From assembly GCA_019232935.1 (NCBI GenBank), contig JAFAMZ010000383.1, positions 1-38,633 on the forward strand: a stretch of 38,633 nucleotides of DNA, given 5' to 3'. Shown here piece by piece: positions 233 to 19,885 of this stretch (its first letter is position 1; every line of letters begins with the position of its first letter). Source of the stretch: Silvibacterium sp. (GTDB taxonomy: Bacteria > Acidobacteriota > Terriglobia > Terriglobales > Acidobacteriaceae). Under the pieces are notes generated by a model. That model made no database searches, had not been told where the DNA came from, and worked only from the letters and a program-made list of their open reading frames with translations. The position numbers were made by a program, and so were the translations under genes.

Positions 233-3200
233 ATGCATCGCTTCCGCGTTTCCAGAGGCCTGTTCCTACTCTTTCTGATCGAAATCGTTGCCTTCTGCCC
301 GACGTTCGCCGGCGCCCAAATGGTGGGCGGCACAATATCCGGAACCGTTATCGATCCCTCGGGTACTCCCCTCAATCAGGCGAAAGTTGTCATCCGGAAT
401 GAGGAGACCGCCACGGAACGCAACCTCACCACGGCCGCTGACGGCACATTCTCCGCTCCTTCAATTGCCGTCGGGGTCTATTCCGTTTCCGTCGAAAAGG
501 ACGGCTTCGCTCCGCTCAAGCGCACCGGCATAACGGTCGCTGTCGCGCAGCACGTGCAATTGCGGCTTCCTTTAACTGTGGGTGCTGTGCAGCAAATCGT
601 AACGGTCGTGGATACACCTGCGGCTGTCGACGCGTCCACACTGCAAACTTCGGGACTGATAACCGAACGTCAGGTTAAGGATCTGCCCCTGAACGGGCGC
701 AGCTTCGACCAGCTTCTCGAGCTCAATCCGGCATCTGTGAGTTACACAACCCAGCGGCAGGGGGCAGTCGGCACCTCCAACTCTTCAGTCGGCAACATGT
801 TTTCCATCTCGGGACGGCGTCCTCAGGACAATCTTTTCCTCCTCAACGGAATCGAGTACACCGGCGCGTCGCTGATCAACGTGACTCCCGGAGGAACCAG
901 CGGCCAGTTGCTTGGTGTGGAGGCCGTTCGCGAATTCAACGCGGTCAGCGATACCTACGGCGCCAACTATGGGAAACGCACGGGCGCGCAGATATCGATC
1001 ATTACGGCTTCCGGCAACAACGATCTGCATGGGTCGGCTTACGAATTCTTCCGCAACAGCGCTCTTGATGCGCGCAACTACTTCGACCAGTCCCACATCC
1101 CGCCTTTTCAGCGTAACGACTTCGGTCTTGCGCTCGGCGGCCCTGTGCGTCGCGATGAAGTCTTCGCTTTCGGAAACTATGAAGGCTATCGCCAACACCT
1201 TGGTCTAAGTGCTGTAACGTTTGTTCCAGATGCGGCCTCACGCGCCGCCACGGTGCCAAGTGTTCAGCCATTGCTGGCCCTATGGCCCGAGGGTACGGTC
1301 GACCTCGGCCAGGGCATCGCGGTCGCCTATTCTAATCCGCCGCAGCATGTGCGTGAGGACTTCGGTACGACCCGCGTCGACGCGAATCTCACGTCCAACG
1401 ACCTGCTCTTTGGCGTATATACGATCGACGACAGCGACGCGACAACTCCGACCGCCAATCCGTATTCCGCCATTTATGAGCAGCTTCGCGAGCAGGTGGC
1501 TAGCGTGCAGGAGCAGCACGTCTTTTCGCCACGCCTGCTCAACACCTTCCGCTTCGGATATTCGCGCGCCAGCTTCTTCTTCGACGGCATCGTTCCCAGC
1601 TCCGTCCCCGGCTGGGTCGCGGGCGCTCCCGTCGGCTCTATCGTGATTTCAGGAAGTACCGCGTCAAATGGCGCATCGCAGATTACTCTGGCCGGCGCCA
1701 ACACGGGCAGCAATAACGCGACCACGCGCAATCTCTTCACCGTCGACGACCACATCTACTGGACACGGGGGCGCCACCAGGTCGAGGCCGGCATCTGGCT
1801 GCAGCGGCTGCAGTCTAATGACTTTCTCGCGCAGAACCAGTATGGACAAGCCTCATTCTCGACGCTCAGCGCATTCGAACAGGGCATCGTCTCGAAGTAC
1901 ACCATTGTCCCCGGCCCCACCGAACTCGGCTGGCGTTCACTGTTCGCGGCCGCCTTCATCGAAGATGCCTGGAAGGTTACACCCCGACTCGAACTTCGCG
2001 CTGGCATTCGCACAGAATCGTCTACCGGATGGAATGAGGCGCAGGGCCGCGCCTCCAACTACGGATTCACAAACGGCGTAATCAACACGAGTCCGACCGT
2101 AGGCTCATCGGCTCTCTTCGATAATCGCGCAAAATTCATGCCCGAGCCGCGAGTGGCGATTGCGTGGGACGTTGCAGGCACAGGCAAAACCGCGGTCAAG
2201 GCCAGCTTTGGCCTGCACCGCGCCATTCTCGATACGCTGGACTACCGCCTCGACCAGACCGCGCCCTTTAACACTACGCTCTCTTACAGCAATACCACGG
2301 TGAGCAAGCTGCCGGAGCTCTCAACCAGCTCCGCGACAGGCGGACTCGTCTCTCCCAGCAATGTCCAGCCGGACATTCAGACGCCCACTGTTCTCACGTG
2401 GACACTTCGTGTTGAGCAGCAGATCGCTCCGCGCACCTCGCTGACCGTGGGCTACGTGGGATCTCACGGCTATCACCAGATCCTCTCCGAAGACCAGAAC
2501 ACGCCGCCCTGGGTCGTTTGCCCCGCAGCTGAATGCCCCGGTTCGCTTCCGGCGGGGACGATCTATTACACAACTACGAAGCTCGCCAATCCCAAGGTTG
2601 CCAACACGACATCGTGGGTTTCGCAAGGCGTCAGCAACTACAACGCACTTGAAGTCGATGTCCGCCGCCAGTATGGCAACGGCCTGCAACTGCGCGGCGT
2701 ATATACATGGTCGAAGAATCTCGACGACGGCTCGGCCTGGAACACCAGCGTCTCAGCAAACACGCCCGCCTATGTTTCTTTCCCCGGCAATCCGAAAGTA
2801 GACTACGCACTCGCTGCCACCAACATCAGCCAGGCCGCGGCGATCAATGGCACGTGGGAGCTACCGCTCGGGCAAGGCCACGCACTGTTCGGCAATGTCT
2901 CATCGATCGGCCAGCAGTTCGCAGTAGGGTGGACCCTCAGCGGGATCGCGACCATCCAGAGCGGATTCCCCTTCTCGCCGCAACTGGGGTACAACCCTAG
3001 CGGCAACGGAGACACCCGCAATCCCGTCCGCCCCTCGATTACTCCAAACTTTCGCGGGCCGCTCTATCTGAGGAAAGCATCCCAGTGGTTCAACCCTGAG
3101 GCGTTCACCGCGCCTTACCCCGGAACCCTGGGAAATGCCGGCCGCGACTCCCTCACTGGCCCGGGCCTTGCGGACCTTGACCTTTCCATAGGAAAAACAA

Positions 3201-7789: not shown

Positions 7790-8146
7790 TTAAGCCTCTA
7801 CAATCTCAAGCTGATCGCCGCACTCAATCTGGCACGCATCAATTTGGCCCGCAGGCAATTCGAGCACGCTCTTGATCTTAAGACTCAGACTGGTCATCCG
7901 AAACGGACGCAATCGTCGCCATACCTTCACAACGCGCATAGCCTTGTCCAGCCCGACCACATCGATGGAGAACAACATTCCCATCGTGTGAACACCCGAC
8001 GACGGACGAATCAGCAGTCCGCATCCGGGCTCCAGCCCTGTTCTTCCGAGAAGGCCGAACAATCGCGTCAGGAATGTATCAGCAGGTACGATTCTGGTCC
8101 CGATCGTTACAGCCTTCCCGGCATTTCTAAGTGTTAATTGTTTCAT
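7790..8146 (-). CDS. DUF192 family protein
   Basis: MKQLTLRNAGKAVTIGTRIVPADTFLTRLFGLLGRTGLEPGCGLLIRPSSGVHTMGMLFSIDVVGLDKAMRVV; start moved from 8218 to the internal ATG at 8146. Confidence 0.82.
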   Translation of the reverse strand: MKQLTLRNAGKAVTIGTRIVPADTFLTRLFGLLGRTGLEPGCGLLIRPSSGVHTMGMLFSIDVVGLDKAMRVVKVWRRLRPFRMTSLSLKIKSVLELPAGQIDACQIECGDQLEIVEA

Positions 8147-8159
8147 TTTCGCCACCGGT

Positions 8160-8243
8160 TCAGTTCGAAGGATGAACCAGCACCTGGTGGACAAGTGCCG
8201 CCACCGCGCCAGCAACAATGACTACCAACATCGTTTCGGTCAC
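8160..8243 (-). CDS. small hydrophobic ORF, 27 aa: (M/V)TETMLVVIVAGAVAALVHQVLVHPSN
   Basis: GTG start with AGGAGG about 7 nt upstream; hydrophobic core; stop lies 13 nt before the DUF192 ATG; not in the ORF track because of its length. Confidence 0.5.
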   Translation of the reverse strand: MTETMLVVIVAGAVAALVHQVLVHPSN

Positions 8244-8288: not shown

Positions 8289-8381
8289 TCAGGCGGTCTT
8301 CTTGCGGCGATATACGATGATGCCTGCGGCCAGGACAGCCAACGCAGCGGCTACAATGCGAACAATAATGGTCGCTTCCAT
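8289..8381 (-). CDS. small single-TM ORF, 30 aa: MEATIIVRIVAAALAVLAAGIIVYRRKKTA (paralog of 8445..8540)
   Basis: ATG preceded by GCCGGGAAAGGAGACTAAAAA; acidic N-terminus, hydrophobic core, RRKK tail; paralogous to the neighbouring sORF. Confidence 0.72.
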   Translation of the reverse strand: MEATIIVRIVAAALAVLAAGIIVYRRKKTA

Positions 8382-8444
8382 TTTTTAGTCTCCTTTCCCG
8401 GCATGGCCGAAACTTTCCCCGGAATTCCTGTCAAAAAAACCTGC

Positions 8445-8540
8445 TTATGTGGTCTTCTTGCTTCTGCGGAAGGCAATCACGGCTACTGCAAGCACTGCCA
8501 GCGCGCCCGCGACAATTCGAACGATCGTTGTCGGTTCCAT
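8445..8540 (-). CDS. small single-TM ORF, 31 aa: MEPTTIVRIVAGALAVLAVAVIAFRRSKKTT (paralog of 8289..8381)
   Basis: ATG preceded by GCCGGAAAGGAGAACGGAA; 21 identical residues over 30 aligned positions with the 8289..8381 ORF. Confidence 0.72.
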   Translation of the reverse strand: MEPTTIVRIVAGALAVLAVAVIAFRRSKKTT

Positions 8541-8606
8541 TTCCGTTCTCCTTTCCGGCACGCGCTCAGTTGCGTACCATCTTTCCGCTACTTCGCTGGT
8601 TTTCCG

Positions 8607-9500
8607 TCACTGTCCCAACGTCTGCATCAACGACAGAACCGCCGGACCGATCAGCACAATGAAAATACAAGGGAAGATAAACAACACCAGCGGAAATAAA
8701 ATCTTGATCTTTGTCTTGGCGGCAGCTTCTTCCGCGCGCTGCCGCCTCTTCGTGCGAATCTCCTCCGCGAAGCGGCTCAGTGCGCGCACAATCGGAGTGC
8801 CGAAACGATCTGTCTGAGTAAGCATCGTCACCAGTGACGAGAACTCCTGCAGCTTGGTCCGATCCGCAAGGCCTTGCCATGCATCGAGCCGGGGCTTGCC
8901 TGCTCGCTGCTCCAGGTTGATCTGCATGAATTCTTCGTGCAGATCGGGATGGCTCACCTTGATCTCCTGCCCGATCCGCAGCAGCGCCTGGTCGAGTCCG
9001 AGGCCGGCTTCTACGCAAATCACCAGCAGATCGATCGCGTCGGGAATGCTCTTCTGAATCCGCTTTTGCCGCCGCTTCACGATGCGAGTGAGCCAAATAT
9101 CCGGAATCAGATAGCCGAGACCCCCGAAAACCAGGCACCACATGAAGGTGCTGCCCGGGATAAAGCTGCCGCCTGCGATACCAGCCAAGGGCACTAGAAC
9201 GCGGGCCGTCAGATAGACATCCTTCGTGTTCGAGCCACGCAGGCCAGCCGAAAGCATCTTCGCTTTCAGCTTGTCGTCTCCCGAGAAGCCGATCCGGGAA
9301 TGGAAGGCGCGTGCCAAATTGAGAACTTTTTCCCGCAAAAGCTCCTTGTCGCTGATCGTTCTCAGGTCCGGCCTCTCGCTTTTCACAATGTCGAGCATCC
9401 GTCTCTCGTGGCGAGCGGGCCGGAGGAACAGGGGAGCGCAGAGCAACGCGACCATGGAGGCCACCATTACTCCGATCGCAATGTAGAAAATCAAATCCAT
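8607..9500 (-). CDS. tadC: Tad secretion inner-membrane protein TadC
   Basis: 297 aa; KRRQKRIQKSIPDAIDLLVICVEAGLGLDQALLRIGQEI (T2SF/GspF-like TadC motif); downstream of tadB. Confidence 0.9.
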   Translation of the reverse strand: MDLIFYIAIGVMVASMVALLCAPLFLRPARHERRMLDIVKSERPDLRTISDKELLREKVLNLARAFHSRIGFSGDDKLKAKMLSAGLRGSNTKDVYLTARVLVPLAGIAGGSFIPGSTFMWCLVFGGLGYLIPDIWLTRIVKRRQKRIQKSIPDAIDLLVICVEAGLGLDQALLRIGQEIKVSHPDLHEEFMQINLEQRAGKPRLDAWQGLADRTKLQEFSSLVTMLTQTDRFGTPIVRALSRFAEEIRTKRRQRAEEAAAKTKIKILFPLVLFIFPCIFIVLIGPAVLSLMQTLGQ

Positions 9501-9523: not shown

Positions 9524-10507
9524 CTAGACATCCACTCCGTTTACGATCTGCCGGATGATCAGCCCACCGAGCACGATCAGCCCGAGCCCCACATAGCAAA
9601 GCTTGCGCCCGAACGGATCGGTGAGCAGAATTTTGGAATATCCCGGATCGATGATGTTCAGGATCCCCATTAACCCAATCGGCATGAGGCTCAAGATCCA
9701 TCCGGTCAGCCTCCCCTGGGCTGTCTGAACTTTGATTTCACCCTGGATTCGCTGTCTCTCCCGGATCAAGAAAACCGTCCGGTCCATCACCTCGACCAGG
9801 TTGCCGCCCGTCTCCCGCTGCACCAGGATCGCCGTAATCAGTACTCGCAGGTCCGGCGATGGTACGCGCTCCAGCAATTGCAAAAGCGCCTCGCGCAATG
9901 GCAATCCAAAGTTCTGCTGCCGGAACACCTCGGCAAACTCCTTTCCTGTCGCTGGAGGAGCTGAGTCGCCGGCCATCTCGATTGCGCCCGAAATCGCGTG
10001 TCCCGCGCGGAGCGCGCGAGCCATCATATCGATCGCCTCAGGCAGATCCTTGTTGAATGCCTTCAGTCTCCGCGATCGGGCCCAGGCAATCCTGATCCAG
10101 GGCAAGCTTGCCATTACACAAGCCGCGATTATTTCCACCGAAGGCTCGGGGTAGACGATCGATGCAGTCAGCAGCCCGATCACTCCCATCGCCGCCGACT
10201 GGACCAGCACGGCAGATGCGTTGCTATTGACGCCGGATTGCATGACAAACCGTTGCAAGTTTTTCCAGAGCGGATACTTCTGGAACGAGGTATCGAGCCA
10301 GCCGAAACGGTCTGAAGAACTCGCACGCAACAGGCTTGTCGCGTCCATATCCATGCCATCGATGCGTGCAGTTCCGGCCTGAATCACAGCTATTCTCTGT
10401 TCCACGCGCTTGGCATCGCGGCTGGGACTGGCAGCCAGCATCATCACGCCGAAGGTCACGGCCAGAATCGCGATAAATCCTGAAATCAGCATCATCATCG
10501 CAGTCAC
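9524..10507 (-). CDS. tadB: Tad secretion inner-membrane protein TadB
   Basis: [32 protein letters not shown] and [47 protein letters not shown] overlap with tadA. Confidence 0.92.
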
Positions 10508-11886
10508 ACTTCCATGGAATGGTCCATCAATCCCGCAGGCACCGGCACCCCTGCAGCCTTAAGCCGCTCAGTGAATTTCGGCATGATGCCTGTGGAGCGA
10601 AATCTGCCCTTTACCTTCCCGTTAGGTCCCAGGCCTTCTTTCTCGAAAACGAAGAGGTCCTGCATGCTGATCACATCGCTGTAGCTGCCGGTCAGCTCGG
10701 TGATATGCGTGATGCGGCGAGAGCCGTCGCTCATTCGGGCCGCCTGCACAATAAGGTGGATCGCCGAGGAAATCTGCAGGCGAATCGCCTTGTCCGGCAG
10801 GCGGATGTCGCCCATCATGCACATTGTTTCCAGACGCGCGAGTCCATCGCGCGGTGTATTGGCGTGAATCGTAGTAAGCGACCCGTCGTGGCCCGTGTTC
10901 ATCGCCTGCAGCATGTCCAGCGCCTCTTCGCCGCGCACCTCGCCGAGCACGATCCGGTCCGGCCGCATACGCAAAGCATTGATCACCAGCTCGCGCTGCC
11001 GTATCGCCCCTTTTCCCTCCACGTTCGGAGGCCGGGTCTCGAGCCGCACAACGTGTTCCTGCTGCAACTTCAATTCGGCTGAGTCTTCGATTGTGACAAT
11101 GCGCTCTTTTTCCGAAATGAAGCTTGAAAGCATATTGAGAAGCGTGGTTTTGCCGGCGCCCGTGCCGCCTGCGATCACGATATTGAGCCGGGCCTGGACT
11201 GCTGCGCGCAGGGTCTCAAGCATTGGCTGGCTCAACGCCTTATAGTGGATGAGATTGTCTGCCGAGAGAGGAGACGACCCGAATCGACGAATGGAAAGAA
11301 TGGGCCCATCGATTGCCAGCGGCCCGATGATCGCATTCACGCGCGATCCATCCTTCAGACGCGCGTCTACCATGGGCGTCGATTCGTCCACGCGGCGCCC
11401 CACCGCGGAAACGATCTTGTCGATAATCTGCAGCAGGTGGCGATTGTCCTTAAAAGTGACACTGGTGCGATGCAGAACGCCCTTGCGCTCCACATAGACG
11501 TGACTGTATGTGTTCACCAGAATGTCGCTGATCGTTTCATCCTTCAGCAGAGGTTCCAGCGGCCCAAGGCCGAAGAGCTCATCCATCACTTCATTGGCCA
11601 CTCGATCGCGCTCGCCGGAGCTCAGCGGGACGCTCTGTTCGCCGATGATCTGCTGAATGAGAGAAAGCAATTGTTGCTGCCCGGTGCGCGTTTCCTGCGC
11701 CTCGCTGAGCTTCTCGAGATCCAGCCGCCGGATCAGCTCCTGGTGCACAGCGGATTTCAACTCCTGCTGCTGTTTTTCCTCGAGCGGCCTCGTGGGCCGG
11801 TTGCCGTTGCGCAGGCTCGAGCCGTTCTGCCGCAAAGCTGCAGACTCTGGCCGCGCAGAGGCGATGTCAATGCCGGTATCAGCCAT
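10504..11886 (-). CDS. tadA: Tad pilus assembly ATPase TadA/CpaF
   Basis: 460 aa; Walker [87 protein letters not shown]. Confidence 0.96.
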
Positions 11887-11910: not shown

Positions 11911-13134
11911 CTATCCCCACAGCGAAAACTTCTTACGCCCATTTTTGGGGGCATGGGTTCCGTTAGTTCCAGCCAGAGTCCCTGCCCACTTCGATAGTTG
12001 CTCGATGAAGTCGGTCTTCTTCTCCGCCGAAACCGGCTCACCAAGATTGATCGCCTTCTGGCACTCCGAATAATTGTTGGAGATTCTGGTCTGCACGGGC
12101 ACGCGGATGGCCTTTTCGATTTGCTCGATTCCGATGGCTCCGGTCGAAGAGTACCGGTTGATGACAATGTGCAGCTTGGTCGTGGCCTGCTCGTTGCGGC
12201 TCAGGTTATCGATATAACGGGAAAGGTCGCGTACCGCTCCGATCTCCGGTGTAGCTACGAGGCAGATCTCGTCCGAGCTATCCATGACGGCAAGGTTGAC
12301 TTCGGTCAGATTTGTCTCGCAATCCAAGATGAGGTAGTCGTATTCGCCGCGAAGAAAATCAATTGTCCGCTCGAGGGCGTCGGGATCGATGCTGCGGTTG
12401 GGGTCGTGCAATTCGGGCGAAGACAGCACCTCCAGCCCGCTCGAGTGCCTGGCGATGAACCCCCGAAGAAGTTCGGAATCCAGCCGGTTCACATTACGAA
12501 TCAGCTCGTGAAAGTGATAGCGGTTCCCATCGAGTCCCAGGTACAGGCATACATGCCCGAACTCCGCGTGATTGTCGATGAGCAGCACCTTCTTTTGCAG
12601 CCGTGTGAGGGTGTGGGCGAAGTTCACGGCGATTGTTGTGGTTCCCACTCCTCCTTTACATCCGAAGAACGACAACACTTTGCCGGCGCTGCGGTTGTGG
12701 CCCATGGTGGCCAGCCAGTGCGTGTTCTGCCGTTCGAGCATTTCCGCAAGTTGCGTCTCGTCGAGCGGGTTCCGGAGCACTTCGTTGCATCCAGCTCGCA
12801 TGGCCTTCAACAGCAGATCGCTGTCATGCCGAGAGGACAGGGCTGCGACAAAGGTCTTGCCGTGAAAGAGCTGCTTAAGGAAGGTCGCCGATTCCTCGGC
12901 AGCCTGGGGGTCACGATCGAAGTCAACTACGGCCAGGACCGCGTTTGCCTTCTTCGCTTCCAGCGAAATGGCCGGACGCCGAACAGCCGAGATATATTCG
13001 GTCATGCTCTCGTGTGAAGTGTTCCAGTGCCGGCGTTGGGTCGCTTGCTCCAGCTTTTCAGTCGAATCCTGGTCGACACACACGGTCAGCACGGAGATGT
13101 CAAGCGAAGGGGTATTCCGATGTGCGCGCCTCAT
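11911..13134 (-). CDS. tadZ: TadZ/CpaE-like MinD-family ATPase
   Basis: KVLSFFGCKGGVGTTTIAVNFAHTLTRLQKKVLLIDNHAEFG deviant Walker A; receiver-like N-terminus; ATGA overlap with the upstream secretin. Confidence 0.9.
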   Translation of the reverse strand: MRRAHRNTPSLDISVLTVCVDQDSTEKLEQATQRRHWNTSHESMTEYISAVRRPAISLEAKKANAVLAVVDFDRDPQAAEESATFLKQLFHGKTFVAALSSRHDSDLLLKAMRAGCNEVLRNPLDETQLAEMLERQNTHWLATMGHNRSAGKVLSFFGCKGGVGTTTIAVNFAHTLTRLQKKVLLIDNHAEFGHVCLYLGLDGNRYHFHELIRNVNRLDSELLRGFIARHSSGLEVLSSPELHDPNRSIDPDALERTIDFLRGEYDYLILDCETNLTEVNLAVMDSSDEICLVATPEIGAVRDLSRYIDNLSRNEQATTKLHIVINRYSSTGAIGIEQIEKAIRVPVQTRISNNYSECQKAINLGEPVSAEKKTDFIEQLSKWAGTLAGTNGTHAPKNGRKKFSLWG

Positions 13135-14594
13135 TTCTGCACCGTGCCTTCTGGGGTCTGGCCGGCAGCCGGCGCGGGAGCAGGTGTCTTCGGCACCATG
13201 CCCTTATCGAACTTGGAATCCGAAATCTGCGGAATTGGTAAATTGGGCTCAACCGGCGTGGGAAGGTTCTCAGTCAACGGATCTACCAGCGTGGGGGTGA
13301 CGATTACGGCGAGTTCCGTCACCGATTTCTTACCGTCCTTCGACTTGAATAGATTTCCGAGAACCGGAACATCGCCAATGCCGGGTATCTTCGAGAGCTG
13401 ATCCGTTGTCCGGCTGTCCAGCAGACCGGAGATGATGAAACTCTGGTCGGTCTTCAGTTCCACTTGAGTTTCGGCCCGACGAGTCGATATTGCCGGGACG
13501 GTATATCCGGAGAGACTCACGGCGTTGGTGTAGTCCAAAGCGCTTACCTCAGGGGCTACTTTTAGTTGAATCGTGCCATCAGCCAGGACGGTCGGGGTGA
13601 AGTCGAGTCTTACTCCATAAGGCCGGAACTGAATGGTCACTGAGGTTCCGCCATTGCTGCCCTGCACGATTGGATAGGGGAATTCACCGCCAGCCAGGAA
13701 CGACGCCTTCTCGCCGTTCATCGCTGTAATTGTCGGCTCGGCGAGGATCTGCAGGATCTGTTTGTCCTGAAGCGCCTGAATGGCGGTTCCGATGCCGAGA
13801 TCGTGGTTGTAATAGAACAGATTCAGAAGGCTGCTGAGCGAAAGCAGAGAGCTGAGGGCGCCTCCGCCCGAACCACCCGAACCGCCAGAGGACCCGCCGG
13901 ATGAACCACCGCTCGAAGGAGCTGCGGTGATCGAAGAGAACTGACCGGTGGTCGAGTTGAAGGTGTTCTTTCCTGTGCCGAAAAAGTTGAATCCAAGATC
14001 CTGCGCCCGGGAGCGGTCGATCTCCACGATGCGAACTTTGAGCCTAACCTGCCGCGCATGCTGAGGAGCAACAAGAATGGAATTCGCAACACTCTTTGAG
14101 AACAATCCGGCCAGCTTTACCGCCGCCTCGGCCGCTTCAGGACTGGAAACCATTCCGGCAAGTGCGACCTCTTCTTCGTGACCCTCCGCCCGGATATTTT
14201 CATACGGCAAAGCGTCCTTCAGGGCTTTGCTCAGTTGCCCGACATCGATATCGGAGCTAATGAGGTAAACCTGCGATTGGCCGAGTTCGTCCCACAGGAT
14301 TACAGTGCTGATGCCGGGCCCCTTCGCAGTAATGACGATCTGATTGGGACTGGCAGTGAAGGAATCCAGAACGGCAGGATTGCTGACGTAGACGCGGCGC
14401 ATCCGGCTCGGCGTGTTGATGAACATCGAGCGGCCCACAACCAGGTGTGTCATCGTATCCATCACCTGCGTGCCAGGTATGTCGGGCGTAACTGCCGAAC
14501 CCGGACCATCGGCGCCGATCGCTGGTGAAGCGAGCAGGAATGCCCCCAGCAGCACCGAAATCGCGTTCCAAATTGTGCCTTTGCGAATTCTCAT
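13131..14594 (-). CDS. cpaC: Tad secretin CpaC/RcpA
   Basis: BON/N0-type N-terminus (LVVGRSMFINTPSRMRRVYVSNPAVLDSFTASPNQIVITAKGPGISTVILWDELGQSQVY) and secretin domain (AEPTITAMNGEKASFLAGGEFPYPI, QSFIISGLLDSRTTDQLSKIPGIGDVPVLGNLF). Confidence 0.94.
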   Translation of the reverse strand: MRIRKGTIWNAISVLLGAFLLASPAIGADGPGSAVTPDIPGTQVMDTMTHLVVGRSMFINTPSRMRRVYVSNPAVLDSFTASPNQIVITAKGPGISTVILWDELGQSQVYLISSDIDVGQLSKALKDALPYENIRAEGHEEEVALAGMVSSPEAAEAAVKLAGLFSKSVANSILVAPQHARQVRLKVRIVEIDRSRAQDLGFNFFGTGKNTFNSTTGQFSSITAAPSSGGSSGGSSGGSGGSGGGALSSLLSLSSLLNLFYYNHDLGIGTAIQALQDKQILQILAEPTITAMNGEKASFLAGGEFPYPIVQGSNGGTSVTIQFRPYGVRLDFTPTVLADGTIQLKVAPEVSALDYTNAVSLSGYTVPAISTRRAETQVELKTDQSFIISGLLDSRTTDQLSKIPGIGDVPVLGNLFKSKDGKKSVTELAVIVTPTLVDPLTENLPTPVEPNLPIPQISDSKFDKGMVPKTPAPAPAAGQTPEGTVQK

Positions 14595-14602
14595 GCCGCG
14601 CC

Positions 14603-15418
14603 TCAGTTAAATGTCTCCGTTGTTGACTTGGTGCCCATCAGGGTTTCAACCACCCAGGCCTTGTCGGTCGTCTTCACTTTCTTAGCTGGAGGTGCAGCCA
14701 CCGTTATGGGCTTCTGGGCCGGAAGATCCGCGAGTTGTCCAAGAGCGACCGGCTTGGCTCCTGCCTGCTCGTGATCGCCTCCGTTGCGGAGCACGAAGTG
14801 AATGCTCCCCTGGGCGCTCGCCAGCACTGCCTTTTCCGCGTCCTCTGGGGAAAGCAGGAGCGTGACTACATCCACGCTCGATGGCTTACCAGTCGGATCG
14901 GGCTGCACCTGGTGCCCGGCAGCCAATATCTCTGCGTCCTGCAACACCGTTGCTGTCACTGGATCCGGATGTACTCCATCCCGGTAAGTCACCAGCACAT
15001 CTACATGCGTTCCCGGCATCAGAAATCCGGCCACACCAACCACTTCATCGGAACGAAGCGCGATTCCACGCATACCGCTTGGGATCTTTCCGGTGAGCCC
15101 TATACCGGATCCAGGAGCCGCAAGATGGCGGTCGAGAATCGGTTCGCCTGCACCCAGTGGGTAAAGAACCGCGCGCCCGACTACGTCCTCCACTCTGTTA
15201 AAAGCACCGGCGAGGGGCATCGATTTCGGCCATTCCACCAGCGCAACATCCTCGCGTTTCAGGGTCGCTCCCGGATCCACCGGTCGCACGGCAGCTACAT
15301 AGGTGTTCGGCGCCTGCGCGGCAGTCCGGCTGCGAGCCATTTTCCGGCTCAGCCAGAAAGTGAAAAGACCGGAGATGACCAGGGCCACAACAAGAGCGAG
15401 TGTCAGACGGCGCGCCAT
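14603..15418 (-). CDS. cpaB: Flp pilus assembly protein CpaB/RcpC
   Basis: TM anchor, SAF-like domain RPVDPGATLKREDVALVEWPKS, PLGAGEPILDRHLA, GMRGIALRSDEVVGVAGFLMPGTHVDVLVTYRD. Confidence 0.9.
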   Translation of the reverse strand: MARRLTLALVVALVISGLFTFWLSRKMARSRTAAQAPNTYVAAVRPVDPGATLKREDVALVEWPKSMPLAGAFNRVEDVVGRAVLYPLGAGEPILDRHLAAPGSGIGLTGKIPSGMRGIALRSDEVVGVAGFLMPGTHVDVLVTYRDGVHPDPVTATVLQDAEILAAGHQVQPDPTGKPSSVDVVTLLLSPEDAEKAVLASAQGSIHFVLRNGGDHEQAGAKPVALGQLADLPAQKPITVAAPPAKKVKTTDKAWVVETLMGTKSTTETFN

Positions 15419-15425
15419 TGGGTAC

Positions 15426-15968
15426 CTACCTCTGCACCGCAGCCAGACACAGTGCCAGCGCGCAGCCGGTCGCAATGGGCACGGCATACGGCAGGCGCAA
15501 AGTCTGCGAATTTGAAATGTTCAGTGAGGGATGCGGCGTAAGCCCCTCGATCCGATGATGAACAACCAGCGCTCCTACATTCAGGAGCGTCTCTTTCGCC
15601 CGTCCGCGCCACAGGGCCATAACGATGGCCATTACACCACCGGCCAGCGCAGTTGAAACCAGCAGATTGCCGACGTGCGGCAGTCCTGCCAGGCAGCCGG
15701 CAGCCGTCATCAGCTTCACATCGCCGGCCCCCATTCCGCCGGCGAGCCAGAAAATCAGGAAGATGCCGAAACAGATCAGCCCTGCTAAAGCTGCTGTACC
15801 CAGCTGGGCCCATCCGCCAAGCACCAGATGCATCATCAATCCACAGCAGATCCCCGGGAGTGTCAGGAAATTGGGTACCCGGCGGCTGCGTATGTCGAAG
15901 GCCGCGCCTGCGAAAGCGCAGACACACGAAGCGGCCGGGTAGATCAACTCGTTAACTGGATTCACCAT
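15426..15968 (-). CDS. tadV: prepilin peptidase TadV/CpaA
   Basis: AFDIRSRRVPNFLTLPG and GGMGAGDVKLMTAAG (type IV prepilin peptidase active-site GxGD). Confidence 0.9.
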   Translation of the reverse strand: MVNPVNELIYPAASCVCAFAGAAFDIRSRRVPNFLTLPGICCGLMMHLVLGGWAQLGTAALAGLICFGIFLIFWLAGGMGAGDVKLMTAAGCLAGLPHVGNLLVSTALAGGVMAIVMALWRGRAKETLLNVGALVVHHRIEGLTPHPSLNISNSQTLRLPYAVPIATGCALALCLAAVQR

Positions 15969-17042: not shown

Positions 17043-18581
17043 ATGCAACCAGGCAATCCTTCATCGTCAGCCAATCAAATCGCGAGAGCCTTGCTCCTCG
17101 CCATGCTGTGCGCCGCTCCAGCTCTTATTTGCTTCCGAACTGGAGCCGCGGCCTGCGTCGGCGATCCCGATCTCGGATGGCATCTCCGCACCGGCGAGTG
17201 GATCCTGCAGCACCATGCCGTACCGCGAGCCGATATCTACTCACGCTTCGGAGCGGGTAAGCCGTGGCAGGCCTACAGCTGGCTTTTCGAAGTACTCCTA
17301 ACCAGGCTTTATCAGTGGTTCCGATTCGATGGCGTCATGGTCTACATGGGCATCATGCTGTCCGCCATTGCAGCCGCACTCTTCCGCCTGACCAGTCGCC
17401 TGCAGCCCGACTTCACCAGGAGCACGCTGCTCACGATGGCGATTTTGACCGCACTCTCGCGCCTCTACACGCCACGCCCCTGGCTGTTCACGATTCTGTT
17501 TTTCATCCTCGAGATCGATATCCTCATGCACGCGCGCCGCACCGGAGAATCCCGCCGCCTGCTCTGGCTGCCGCCGCTCTTTGCGCTCTGGGCCAACATA
17601 CACATCCAGTTCATCGATGGGCTCATGGTGCTCGGCCTAGCGGCATGCGAGCCAGTTCTCGCGCGGTGGTGGAAGCCCTCCCTCAGCCGCCTTTCTGCGC
17701 GCAGCCTCTGGATAGCATTGCCGGCATGCATCGCTGCAGCCTGCGTGAACCCTTACGGCGCCGGCATTTACAAAGTTGCGCATGCTCTGGCCGCGCAACC
17801 CGGCGTATTGAACACGATCAGCGAAATGCATGCGCTTCCCTTCCGCTCGATGATGGATTTCCTGCTGCTCTTTCTCGCTATGGCAGCGGTTGCTGTCATG
17901 TTCAGGTTCCATCGCCTCTTCCCATTTGAGACCCTTATGCTGGCCATGGCGTTGTGGCTCTCATTCCGGTCCCAGCGGGATATCTGGTTCCTCGCCATCG
18001 TAGCCGCCGTCATTCTCGCCGAGGGCCTGCCCATTCGATCCAGCTCGCAGCAATCCGGACGAGAGTCGCTTTGGACAGTGCCATTAAGCTTTGCTGCCAC
18101 TGCACTCCTCGTCCTCGTCAGCGCTTTTGCAACTCAGATCAGAAACGACCGGCTCGAAGGCAAGCTCGCCGAAGAGATGCCGCTCAAGGCCGTACAGGTC
18201 GTTCGAGAACACCAGTATTCCGGCGCGCTCTACAACACCTACGGATGGGGCGGCTTTCTAATCTGGAACCTGCGCGAGCCGGTCAGTATCGACGGACGCG
18301 CTGCTTTCTACGGCGATGAAAGAATCGATCGCTCGATGAAGACCTGGAACGGCGGCCCCGATTGGGCCTCTGATCCCGATCTCAAGTCCGCGGGTCTGGT
18401 CATCGCGCCGGTGGACGCCGCGCTCACACAATTGCTGCGCATGGATTCCCGCTTCGAGCTTGCCTACCAGGACAAGGTCGCTGCAGTTTTTGTCGCACGC
18501 AGCCAGCAGCAGAAAAATTCATCCAGTGTGGCCACCCTCAGTCCCGCCGGCAAAGCTCATGATCCGGAGAAAAGACTGTGA
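17043..18581 (+). CDS. polytopic membrane protein, GT-C-like glycosyltransferase candidate, in the Tad locus
   Basis: 512 aa, many TM segments; GDPDLGWHLRTGEWILQHHAVPRADIYSRFGAGKPWQAYSWLFEVL near the N-terminus, GALYNTYGWGGFLIWNLREPVSIDGRAAFYGDERIDR soluble segment. Confidence 0.75.
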   Translation: MQPGNPSSSANQIARALLLAMLCAAPALICFRTGAAACVGDPDLGWHLRTGEWILQHHAVPRADIYSRFGAGKPWQAYSWLFEVLLTRLYQWFRFDGVMVYMGIMLSAIAAALFRLTSRLQPDFTRSTLLTMAILTALSRLYTPRPWLFTILFFILEIDILMHARRTGESRRLLWLPPLFALWANIHIQFIDGLMVLGLAACEPVLARWWKPSLSRLSARSLWIALPACIAAACVNPYGAGIYKVAHALAAQPGVLNTISEMHALPFRSMMDFLLLFLAMAAVAVMFRFHRLFPFETLMLAMALWLSFRSQRDIWFLAIVAAVILAEGLPIRSSSQQSGRESLWTVPLSFAATALLVLVSAFATQIRNDRLEGKLAEEMPLKAVQVVREHQYSGALYNTYGWGGFLIWNLREPVSIDGRAAFYGDERIDRSMKTWNGGPDWASDPDLKSAGLVIAPVDAALTQLLRMDSRFELAYQDKVAAVFVARSQQQKNSSSVATLSPAGKAHDPEKRL

Positions 18582-19885
18582 TGAGGACAGTGGCACGTTT
18601 TAGAAATGTTCTGCAGGATGAGAGCGGCCAGGCTCTGGTTCTTGCCGGCGTGGGGATGGTTGTGATCGTTGGTTTCCTCGCGCTCGCCATCGACGTTGGG
18701 CAGTTGCGTTATGCGCAGACCAAGCTGCAGAATGCCGCGGATGCGGCAGCTATGGCCGCCGCAATCGAAATCTCTTATTGCGGCAACACCCATGCCTGCA
18801 CCGCCATGCAGACGGCGGCACAGAAAGCGCTGGCCGAGAACGGCTTCTCGGGCAGCACTGTGTATACCAACTGCGGCACTCCTGGAACCGGCTTGACCAT
18901 CGGTGTGAATCAGGGCCCCTGCGCTCTCGGCTCGACATCGAGCGACCCGCATTACGGGAGCTCCCAGTTTGCGGAAGTCGTTGTCACCTACTCGCAGCCA
19001 ACCTATTTTGCCAGAACTCTCGGCGTCAGTTCGGTCAAGATAAAGGTGCGAGCGGAAGCGGGTCTGGCAAACTCGACGAATTGTCTCTTCGTTTCCACCA
19101 ACAACACCAGCACCAGCGCAAACAATGCGCTGCTTGTGAATGGCTCTGCCTCAATTGCAGCGTCCTGCGGCATTATCGACGACGCGGGCGGCAGTTCGGC
19201 CGCCATTTTCAATGGCAACGACACAATCAATTCCGCCGGGCTGTATATTCACGGCGGTGACATAAACAACGGCAATAACACGATCAGCCCCTCGCCGACC
19301 ACCAACGCGTTAGCTGTGGCGGATCCCCTCAGCTACCTGACTGCGCCGACTGCCGGAAGCTGCACGTATACCAACGAGGTCATCAATGGCGGCAGCGGAA
19401 CGGTAACGCTGAATCCGGGCACTTACTGCGGCGGCCTGATCATCAATGGCAACGTGACCGTCAGCTTCACGTCCGGAACCTACATCATGCAGGGAAACAT
19501 GATTGTCAACGGCGGGGACACCATCTCCGGAACAGGGCTGACGTTTTATTTCAGTTCCGGCAGCCTGACCATGAACGGATCGAGCGACGCGAATCTGGTA
19601 GCCCCGACAAGCGGAACCTATGCGGGCATCCTCATCTATCAGGACTCAAGTGACAGTTCGGGGATCATTCTCAATGGCGACTCGAATTCCGTGTGGCAGG
19701 GGACACTCTATGCGCCTGCAGCCAACCTGACCCTCAACGGCGGCGGGAACCTCGCAGCCTATACGATCCTCGACACGGAAAGCCTTACCGTAAACGGCGG
19801 GGTCAATTTCACCATGGGATCCAATTACTCATCGCTTTCAGGAGGTTCGCCCGTGAAAAGCGGGGCAGCCGTTTTAGTGGAGTAG
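18578..19885 (+). CDS. Tad-domain (TadG-like) membrane-anchored protein with repetitive beta-helix-like C-terminus
   Basis: LQDESGQALVLAGVGMVVIVGFLALAIDVGQLRYAQTKLQNAADAAAMAAA N-terminus, then repeated xxxNGxxx turns; start overlaps the upstream stop (GTGATG). Confidence 0.85.
   Translation: MMRTVARFRNVLQDESGQALVLAGVGMVVIVGFLALAIDVGQLRYAQTKLQNAADAAAMAAAIEISYCGNTHACTAMQTAAQKALAENGFSGSTVYTNCGTPGTGLTIGVNQGPCALGSTSSDPHYGSSQFAEVVVTYSQPTYFARTLGVSSVKIKVRAEAGLANSTNCLFVSTNNTSTSANNALLVNGSASIAASCGIIDDAGGSSAAIFNGNDTINSAGLYIHGGDINNGNNTISPSPTTNALAVADPLSYLTAPTAGSCTYTNEVINGGSGTVTLNPGTYCGGLIINGNVTVSFTSGTYIMQGNMIVNGGDTISGTGLTFYFSSGSLTMNGSSDANLVAPTSGTYAGILIYQDSSDSSGIILNGDSNSVWQGTLYAPAANLTLNGGGNLAAYTILDTESLTVNGGVNFTMGSNYSSLSGGSPVKSGAAVLVE

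Follow-up and report, generated by a model that had tools for sequence, protein, structure and literature searches.

Genes at the locus

The window, which is the whole stretch of DNA analysed here (38,633 nucleotides), is an entire contig of a Silvibacterium assembly (3.9 Mb, 75% complete) and carries a Tad pilus operon on its minus strand. The core genes known from other type IVc (Tad/Flp) pilus systems, namely Caulobacter cpa, Aggregatibacter tad and Pseudomonas rcp/tad (flp, cpaA/tadV, cpaB/rcpC, cpaC/rcpA, cpaE/tadZ, tadA, tadB and tadC) are also found here. At the upstream end of the operon are genes for two Flp-like pilins and a CpaA-like peptidase (named from their translations), the pilin genes being ~8 kb upstream of three small open reading frames (ORFs), called mpA, mpB and mpC, that follow tadC. 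The features are listed below from upstream to downstream.

14603..15487, minus strand: rcpC/cpaB (PF16976, PF08666)
13131-14594, minus strand: secretin rcpA/cpaC (PF00263 with PF13629)
11911-13134, minus strand: cpaE/tadZ-like ATPase (PF13614)
10504..11886, minus strand: tadA/cpaF ATPase (PF00437, E 1e-59)
9524..10507, minus strand: tadB, T2SSF platform protein (PF00482, E 1.1e-17)
8607..9500, minus strand: tadC, T2SSF platform protein (PF00482, E 2.6e-20), the constant upstream neighbour of mpA
8541..8560, minus strand: ribosome-binding region of mpA, TGCCGGAAAGGAGAACGGAA (anti-SD energy -8.7 kcal/mol)
8445..8540, minus strand: mpA, predicted 31-aa single-span membrane microprotein MEPTTIVRIVAGALAVLAVAVIAFRRSKKTT (profile E 1.5e-13; helix predicted at residues 4-30)
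8382..8401, minus strand: ribosome-binding region of mpB, CCGGGAAAGGAGACTAAAAA (anti-SD energy -8.7 kcal/mol)
8289..8381, minus strand: mpB, 30-aa paralog of mpA, MEATIIVRIVAAALAVLAAGIIVYRRKKTA (profile E 2e-12)
8160..8243, minus strand: mpC, 27-aa hydrophobic microprotein VTETMLVVIVAGAVAALVHQVLVHPSN with a GTG start (Shine–Dalgarno (SD) sequence and conservation in the relative L032)
7790..8146, minus strand: DUF192 (COG1430) gene (PF02643, E 1.2e-15), the usual downstream neighbour of the tadC–microprotein block

Spacings are short throughout: 66 nt from the tadC stop to mpA, 63 nt from mpA to mpB, 45 nt from mpB to mpC and 13 nt from the end of mpC to the DUF192 start. A sequence-only reading of this DNA had described mpA and mpB, and the translations at 8540..8445 and 8381..8289 (minus strand) match its peptides letter for letter. 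Its 21 identities over 30 positions are recovered with a one-residue gap at the S of RRSKK (19 without the gap), and the SD regions it reported, TGCCGGAAAGGAGA and TGCCGGGAAAGGAGA, are present in the sequence. The two microproteins it placed after tadC are both real, but the set comprises three, the mpC ORF having been missed. Common gene callers use a 90-nt floor; mpA (96 nt) and mpB (93 nt) lie just above it, so that its description of them as too short for normal gene callers may be overstated, and mpC (84 nt) lies under the floor.

When mpA was used as a query against the 3.9 Mb assembly, mpB was recovered at E 1e-5 with no further match. mpC lacks R8 and the basic tail of mpA and mpB, and is possibly a diverged third paralog of them; it was found only in this genome and in one genome of the same genus, Silvibacterium sp. 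CP_BE_RX_22 (L032), which is also the closest named relative (TadC 89% identical). Beside the Tad operon, but on the other strand (18578-19885, plus strand), the window also encodes a TadG-like protein whose N-terminus includes a pilin-like segment, VLQDESGQALVLAGVGMVVIVGFLALAIDVGQ.

Sequence, predicted structure and topology

Members of the mpA/mpB family are mostly 29-32 aa long, with the consensus MDxTTxIRxVAGVLAVxVLxxIIxRRKK and a hydrophobic core at residues 9-24; AlphaFold2 predicts a single helix spanning residues 4-30. Residues 1-8 have a net charge of ~0 (0.0) and those from position 24 onward one of +4.3, and the C-terminal end is the more positive in 99% of members. Given this asymmetry and the positive-inside rule, the predicted orientation is N-out, C-in; the RR(K)K tail would face the cytoplasm, and the N-terminus, which is short and acidic, the periplasm. 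R25 never varies among members, and R8, L14 and R26 hardly do. Conservation follows helical periodicity at 100 degrees (p 0.009 for residues 8-26 and 0.019 for residues 9-24) and defines a face formed by R8, A11, A/F15, V18/L19, L22 and R26. A conserved face of this kind, on what is predicted to be an isolated helix, suggests that another membrane protein is its partner.

Coding evidence and predicted translation

The coding status of such short ORFs was assessed by comparison with L032 and with the family as a whole. For mpA, mpB and mpC taken together, pS is 0.455 and pN 0.099 (omega 0.15, Fisher p 1.4e-9). Taken singly, the values are dS 0.92 and dN 0.05 for mpB, dS 0.50 and dN 0.06 for mpC, and dS 0.72 and dN 0.22 for mpA, whose dN/dS (0.31) is moderate. 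The ORFs are 74-84% identical to those of L032 and contain a single in-frame gap, versus 62% identity and 28 gap columns in the spacers; the sole ORF indel, 3 nt long, lies in mpC. In an alignment of 140 unique ORFs of the family, base entropy is 1.10 at the first codon position, 0.74 at the second and 1.73 at the third. An SD core is present within 20 nt of the start in 105/109 family ORFs, and the mean anti-SD energy of the microprotein ORFs (-8.8 kcal/mol) compares with -6.3 for tadC, -5.4 for DUF192 and -2.9 for random background sites. The SD of mpC, GAAGGAGG, has an energy of -11.7, the strongest among the genes scored.

The substitution pattern indicates that mpA, mpB and mpC are under protein-level purifying selection and, since low omega, codon-position entropy, gap pattern and SD strength concur, the microproteins are very likely translated. 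Comparison with relatives thus bears out what the sequence-only reading had argued from the two copies of a single genome: omega is far under 1 (~0.15 for the three genes against L032), the frames are undisturbed, and an ORF is present at the same position in relatives (matches in 120 of the 298 genomes of the order, almost all beside tadC). That the ORFs are chance frames or remnants rather than genes would be in keeping with their very small size and with translation being predicted from sequence alone, but it is hard to reconcile with purifying selection and with the conservation of both SD and position in >100 genomes, and its probability is judged to be close to nil.

An overlapping antisense gene was also considered as the source of conservation and rejected, the plus-strand frame being open for 185 codons in the window and for at most 92 in L032.

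Distribution and linkage to tadC

The order was searched with a single sequence first and then with a profile (A1), in 298 genomes at a cut-off of E < 1e-3. A match was obtained in 120 genomes, and TadC is present in 119 of them versus 64 of the 178 negative genomes (Fisher p 2.6e-34). In other words, 114 genomes have neither TadC nor microprotein, 64 have TadC without microprotein, and in the sole positive genome without TadC (G173) the copies are right where a contig begins. By coordinates, 102 of the 150 listed matches are downstream of tadC on the same strand, at a distance of 36-1444 nt (median 82). Inspection of the DNA at the remaining loci placed 44/50 matches directly downstream of a tadC. 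The six exceptions are at contig ends (L099, and L106 twice) or in other contexts, namely L097 (a second Tad locus, where it follows a cpaE-like gene), L103 (a divergent copy beside cpaA/cpaB, then DUF192) and L100 (after ftsK); the genes at these loci were named from their translations.

Linkage extends beyond the order. In the class Terriglobia, 143/299 genomes match, and in the other families of the class the microprotein lies 27-175 nt after tadC in 35/40 loci, many of which have no DUF192. Outside the class, nine genomes of the phylum sample match at E < 1e-3; at eight loci inspected, the microprotein follows tadC in seven (L219, L221-L226). No microprotein was found in any of the 23 Bacillota and Sericytochromatia genomes with a TadC relative. 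The family is therefore tied to Tad loci, as the sequence-only reading had supposed from operon position, and to tadC specifically, as genome counts and the TadC tree both indicate. It is old and spread over several classes of the phylum rather than a local curiosity.

Since the microprotein follows tadC even where DUF192 is absent, tadC is its constant partner. This bears on the notion that the ORFs are leader peptides controlling the downstream DUF192 gene, with a product of no importance in itself. The ORFs do lie upstream of DUF192 and would be translated just before it, mpC ending 13 nt from its start. However, the ORF persists after tadC in loci without DUF192 (many of L196-L217), and on this ground the notion was rejected; the distance to DUF192 also varies widely, and it is the amino-acid sequence, beyond mere translation, that is kept over great distances. 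A leader function is thus considered very improbable.

Three further observations concern these loci. Variants at L197, L201, L202, L207, L221 and L222 have a hydrophobic N-terminal extension (e.g. MNLALWLLQAAPEAAPDNTNTIRIVAGVLALV...) before the same core, with a C-terminal DW(S/N) motif, and adjoin strongly diverged TadC proteins. At L039 (CAJCHN010000150.1), in an assembly titled Rhodanobacteraceae, the TadC, microprotein and DUF192 group inside Acidobacteriaceae, and the assembly is probably mislabelled or contaminated. DUF192 (COG1430) directly follows tadC in the window and at L045, L047, L052, L065 and L066, in Acidobacteriota and also in Bacillota and Sericytochromatia; its link with Tad pili is conserved and seems not to have been discussed.

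Inheritance, copy number and a negative clade

On a TadC tree of 174 rows, microprotein presence is explained by 4 changes versus 46.4 for shuffled labels, and none of 500 shuffles gave a value as low; the tree is a quick one with some long branches, which makes the exact change count soft and the clustering firm. One TadC clade of 30 rows is without microprotein, and in it tadC is mostly followed by DUF192 after ~60-134 nt, a gap with little or no room for a microprotein ORF. A search of these gaps for a diverged small transmembrane ORF with an SD gave none in nearly all loci; at L164 the gap holds an unrelated 27-aa ORF. The idea that negative genomes carry the microprotein fused to TadC was rejected, since TadC tails have about the same length and the same end point in positive and negative loci. 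One locus scored negative (L227, genome G040) nonetheless has a diverged copy ~1.6 kb downstream. At least one large Tad clade thus does without the microprotein.

Copy number varies, with one match in 63 of the 120 positive genomes and two to five in the other 57. Recurrent duplication is indicated by several tandem pairs whose two copies, in one and the same genome, are near-identical or very similar (L119, L023, L112 and L074). Unlike these pairs, mpA and mpB each pair with their own L032 ortholog.

Tad-independent relatives

In genomes of Bryobacterales type, close relatives with longer acidic tails (..DDF/..EEF) occur away from Tad genes. Paralogs of ~37-40 aa ending in ..EDDF are repeatedly found directly upstream of a SET-domain gene, often after mdh (malate dehydrogenase), at L183, L195, L245, L247, L249, L252, L254 and L256 (neighbours named from translations), and a second set with ..DDEEF tails occurs in other contexts (L204, L242, L243 and L255). 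At L100 (~1997-2090, plus strand), a Tad-type microprotein, MDQTTIIRIVAGVLVIVILIVLIQRRRTRTK, immediately follows ftsK; a tadC-linked copy is present in this genome as well. Because of the Bryobacterales-type paralogs and this L100 copy, the helix family is not exclusively a Tad one. The helix is part of a wider family of putatively N-out microproteins, whose Tad-linked branch is the commonest in the data examined.

These relatives favour a view of the microprotein as a general membrane one, acting in stress or homeostasis or like a type I toxin, and co-transcribed with tad by chance. Type I toxins and stress microproteins are of similar size, with a single helix and a basic tail, and undergo tandem duplication. 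Yet within the order the microprotein is essentially restricted to genomes with Tad and to the position that follows tadC, and its presence follows the TadC tree. Between 7700 and 8800, on both strands, a search covering known RNAs and promoters of the sigma-70 type gave no Rfam toxin–antitoxin RNA match and no sigma-70-like promoter; as the SDs are strong and this search gave neither an Rfam family nor a promoter-like site in antisense, a silenced toxin seems a poor fit. A general function of this sort is considered quite unlikely.

Known systems and family databases

For the window peptides, nothing in Pfam or NCBIfam scored above its curated cut-off. Other family members match generic helix-plus-basic-tail models weakly (best E 0.001-0.003), and the microprotein family is outside the curated families of both databases. 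An LPXTG or GlyGly-CTERM sorting tail was rejected: mpB scores 16.6 bits against Gram_pos_anchor (cut-off 20) and mpA 14.1 against GG_III-CTERM (cut-off 22). Such tails resemble the microprotein in having a hydrophobic helix followed by RR/RK, but the microprotein has neither a parent protein nor a sorting motif. In the open papers that made up most of the literature searched (Tad combined with small proteins, Acidobacteria or DUF192), a microprotein in Tad loci was not found, and the available text of two accounts of known Tad systems does not mention one after tadC (PMC11300603, PMC12307814).

Flp pilins are the obvious comparison within the machine. Like the microprotein, they are small, have one hydrophobic helix, lie in tad loci and can fill the same slot; unlike them, the microprotein has no prepilin leader or cleavage site and no E5, and it has a basic C-terminal tail. 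The possibility that it is itself a pilin was therefore rejected: none of the family sequences read has a leader with a G/A end that runs into a mature helix with E5, and there is no Pfam Flp match. A role on the pilin side of the Tad machine, whereby it escorts, stores or retains Flp prepilin or pilin, or assists the prepilin peptidase, was also considered. At the Terriglobus-type loci L043, L136 and L137, an Flp pilin gene occupies the exact tadC–DUF192 slot of the microprotein, at L103 the microprotein gene adjoins cpaA/cpaB instead of tadC, and an abundant pilin would suit a helix partner of high copy number and high translation. In the window, however, the Flp pilin genes are those ~8 kb upstream, and the constant neighbour is tadC. 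This role is the best of the rival explanations, but is still regarded as unlikely. The tadC–DUF192 gap of the same three loci (L043, L136 and L137) also contains a 28-aa transmembrane ORF (MAHIFGLDAIWLLVVPCVVTIVGLHCHQ or a near copy).

A parallel is offered by small membrane subunits. CydX, AcrZ, KdpF and CcmD have, like the microprotein, <60 aa and one hydrophobic helix. KdpF and CcmD are single-helix subunits thought to bind a large membrane partner. CydX and AcrZ are likewise thought to act by binding such a partner (PMC4325964, PMC7267776). With CydX, AcrZ and KdpF the microprotein shares not only size and helix number but also genetic association with a large membrane protein, since it is in the same operon as tadC and co-inherited with it. 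It differs from all four in having no sequence relation to them (CcmD models match only at E 0.02-0.07), in that its candidate partner is a pilus platform, for which no subunit of this kind turned up in the papers searched, and in being known from sequence alone.

A putative subunit of the Tad platform

mpA, mpB and mpC are real genes that had been overlooked, and they are probably working parts of the Tad pilus machine. TadA, TadB and TadC form an inner-membrane assembly complex (PMC12307814, PMC11300603), in which TadB/TadC is the platform driven by TadA/CpaF and the coupling to pilins is an open question (PMC11300603). With tadC as the constant neighbour, DUF192 as an optional one and inheritance that follows TadC, the likeliest role is that of a small platform subunit. 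That mpA and mpB serve the TadB/TadC platform of the inner membrane as small accessory subunits is given a probability of about one half; operon position in itself argues for co-expression more than for binding.

Under this proposal, the conserved face of mpA and mpB (R8, A11, A/F15, L19, L22 and R26) would pack on the transmembrane helices of the platform, and the basic tail would be located where TadA/CpaF docks, so that the pilus motor might be stabilized or tuned. Both proteins would be made in more copies than TadC, a need suggested by strong ribosome-binding sites and repeated tandem duplication. mpC, whose tail is altered, would be a third microprotein of this operon and specific to the lineage.

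A longer history may also be sketched, to which slightly less than even odds are assigned. The 30-aa helix would be an ancestral subunit of the Tad platform in Acidobacteriota, present from early in the history of the phylum and passed on together with TadC. Some genomes would have raised it to as many as five copies and one large clade would have dropped it, and outside Tad it would have found a new use upstream of SET-domain genes, within a wider family of N-out microproteins. A conserved small protein that tracks TadC through a bacterial class and is absent from one clade allows a comparison set up by nature and gives compact access to the platform. It also represents a clean family, amenable to testing, among the membrane microproteins of bacteria, most of which are unannotated.
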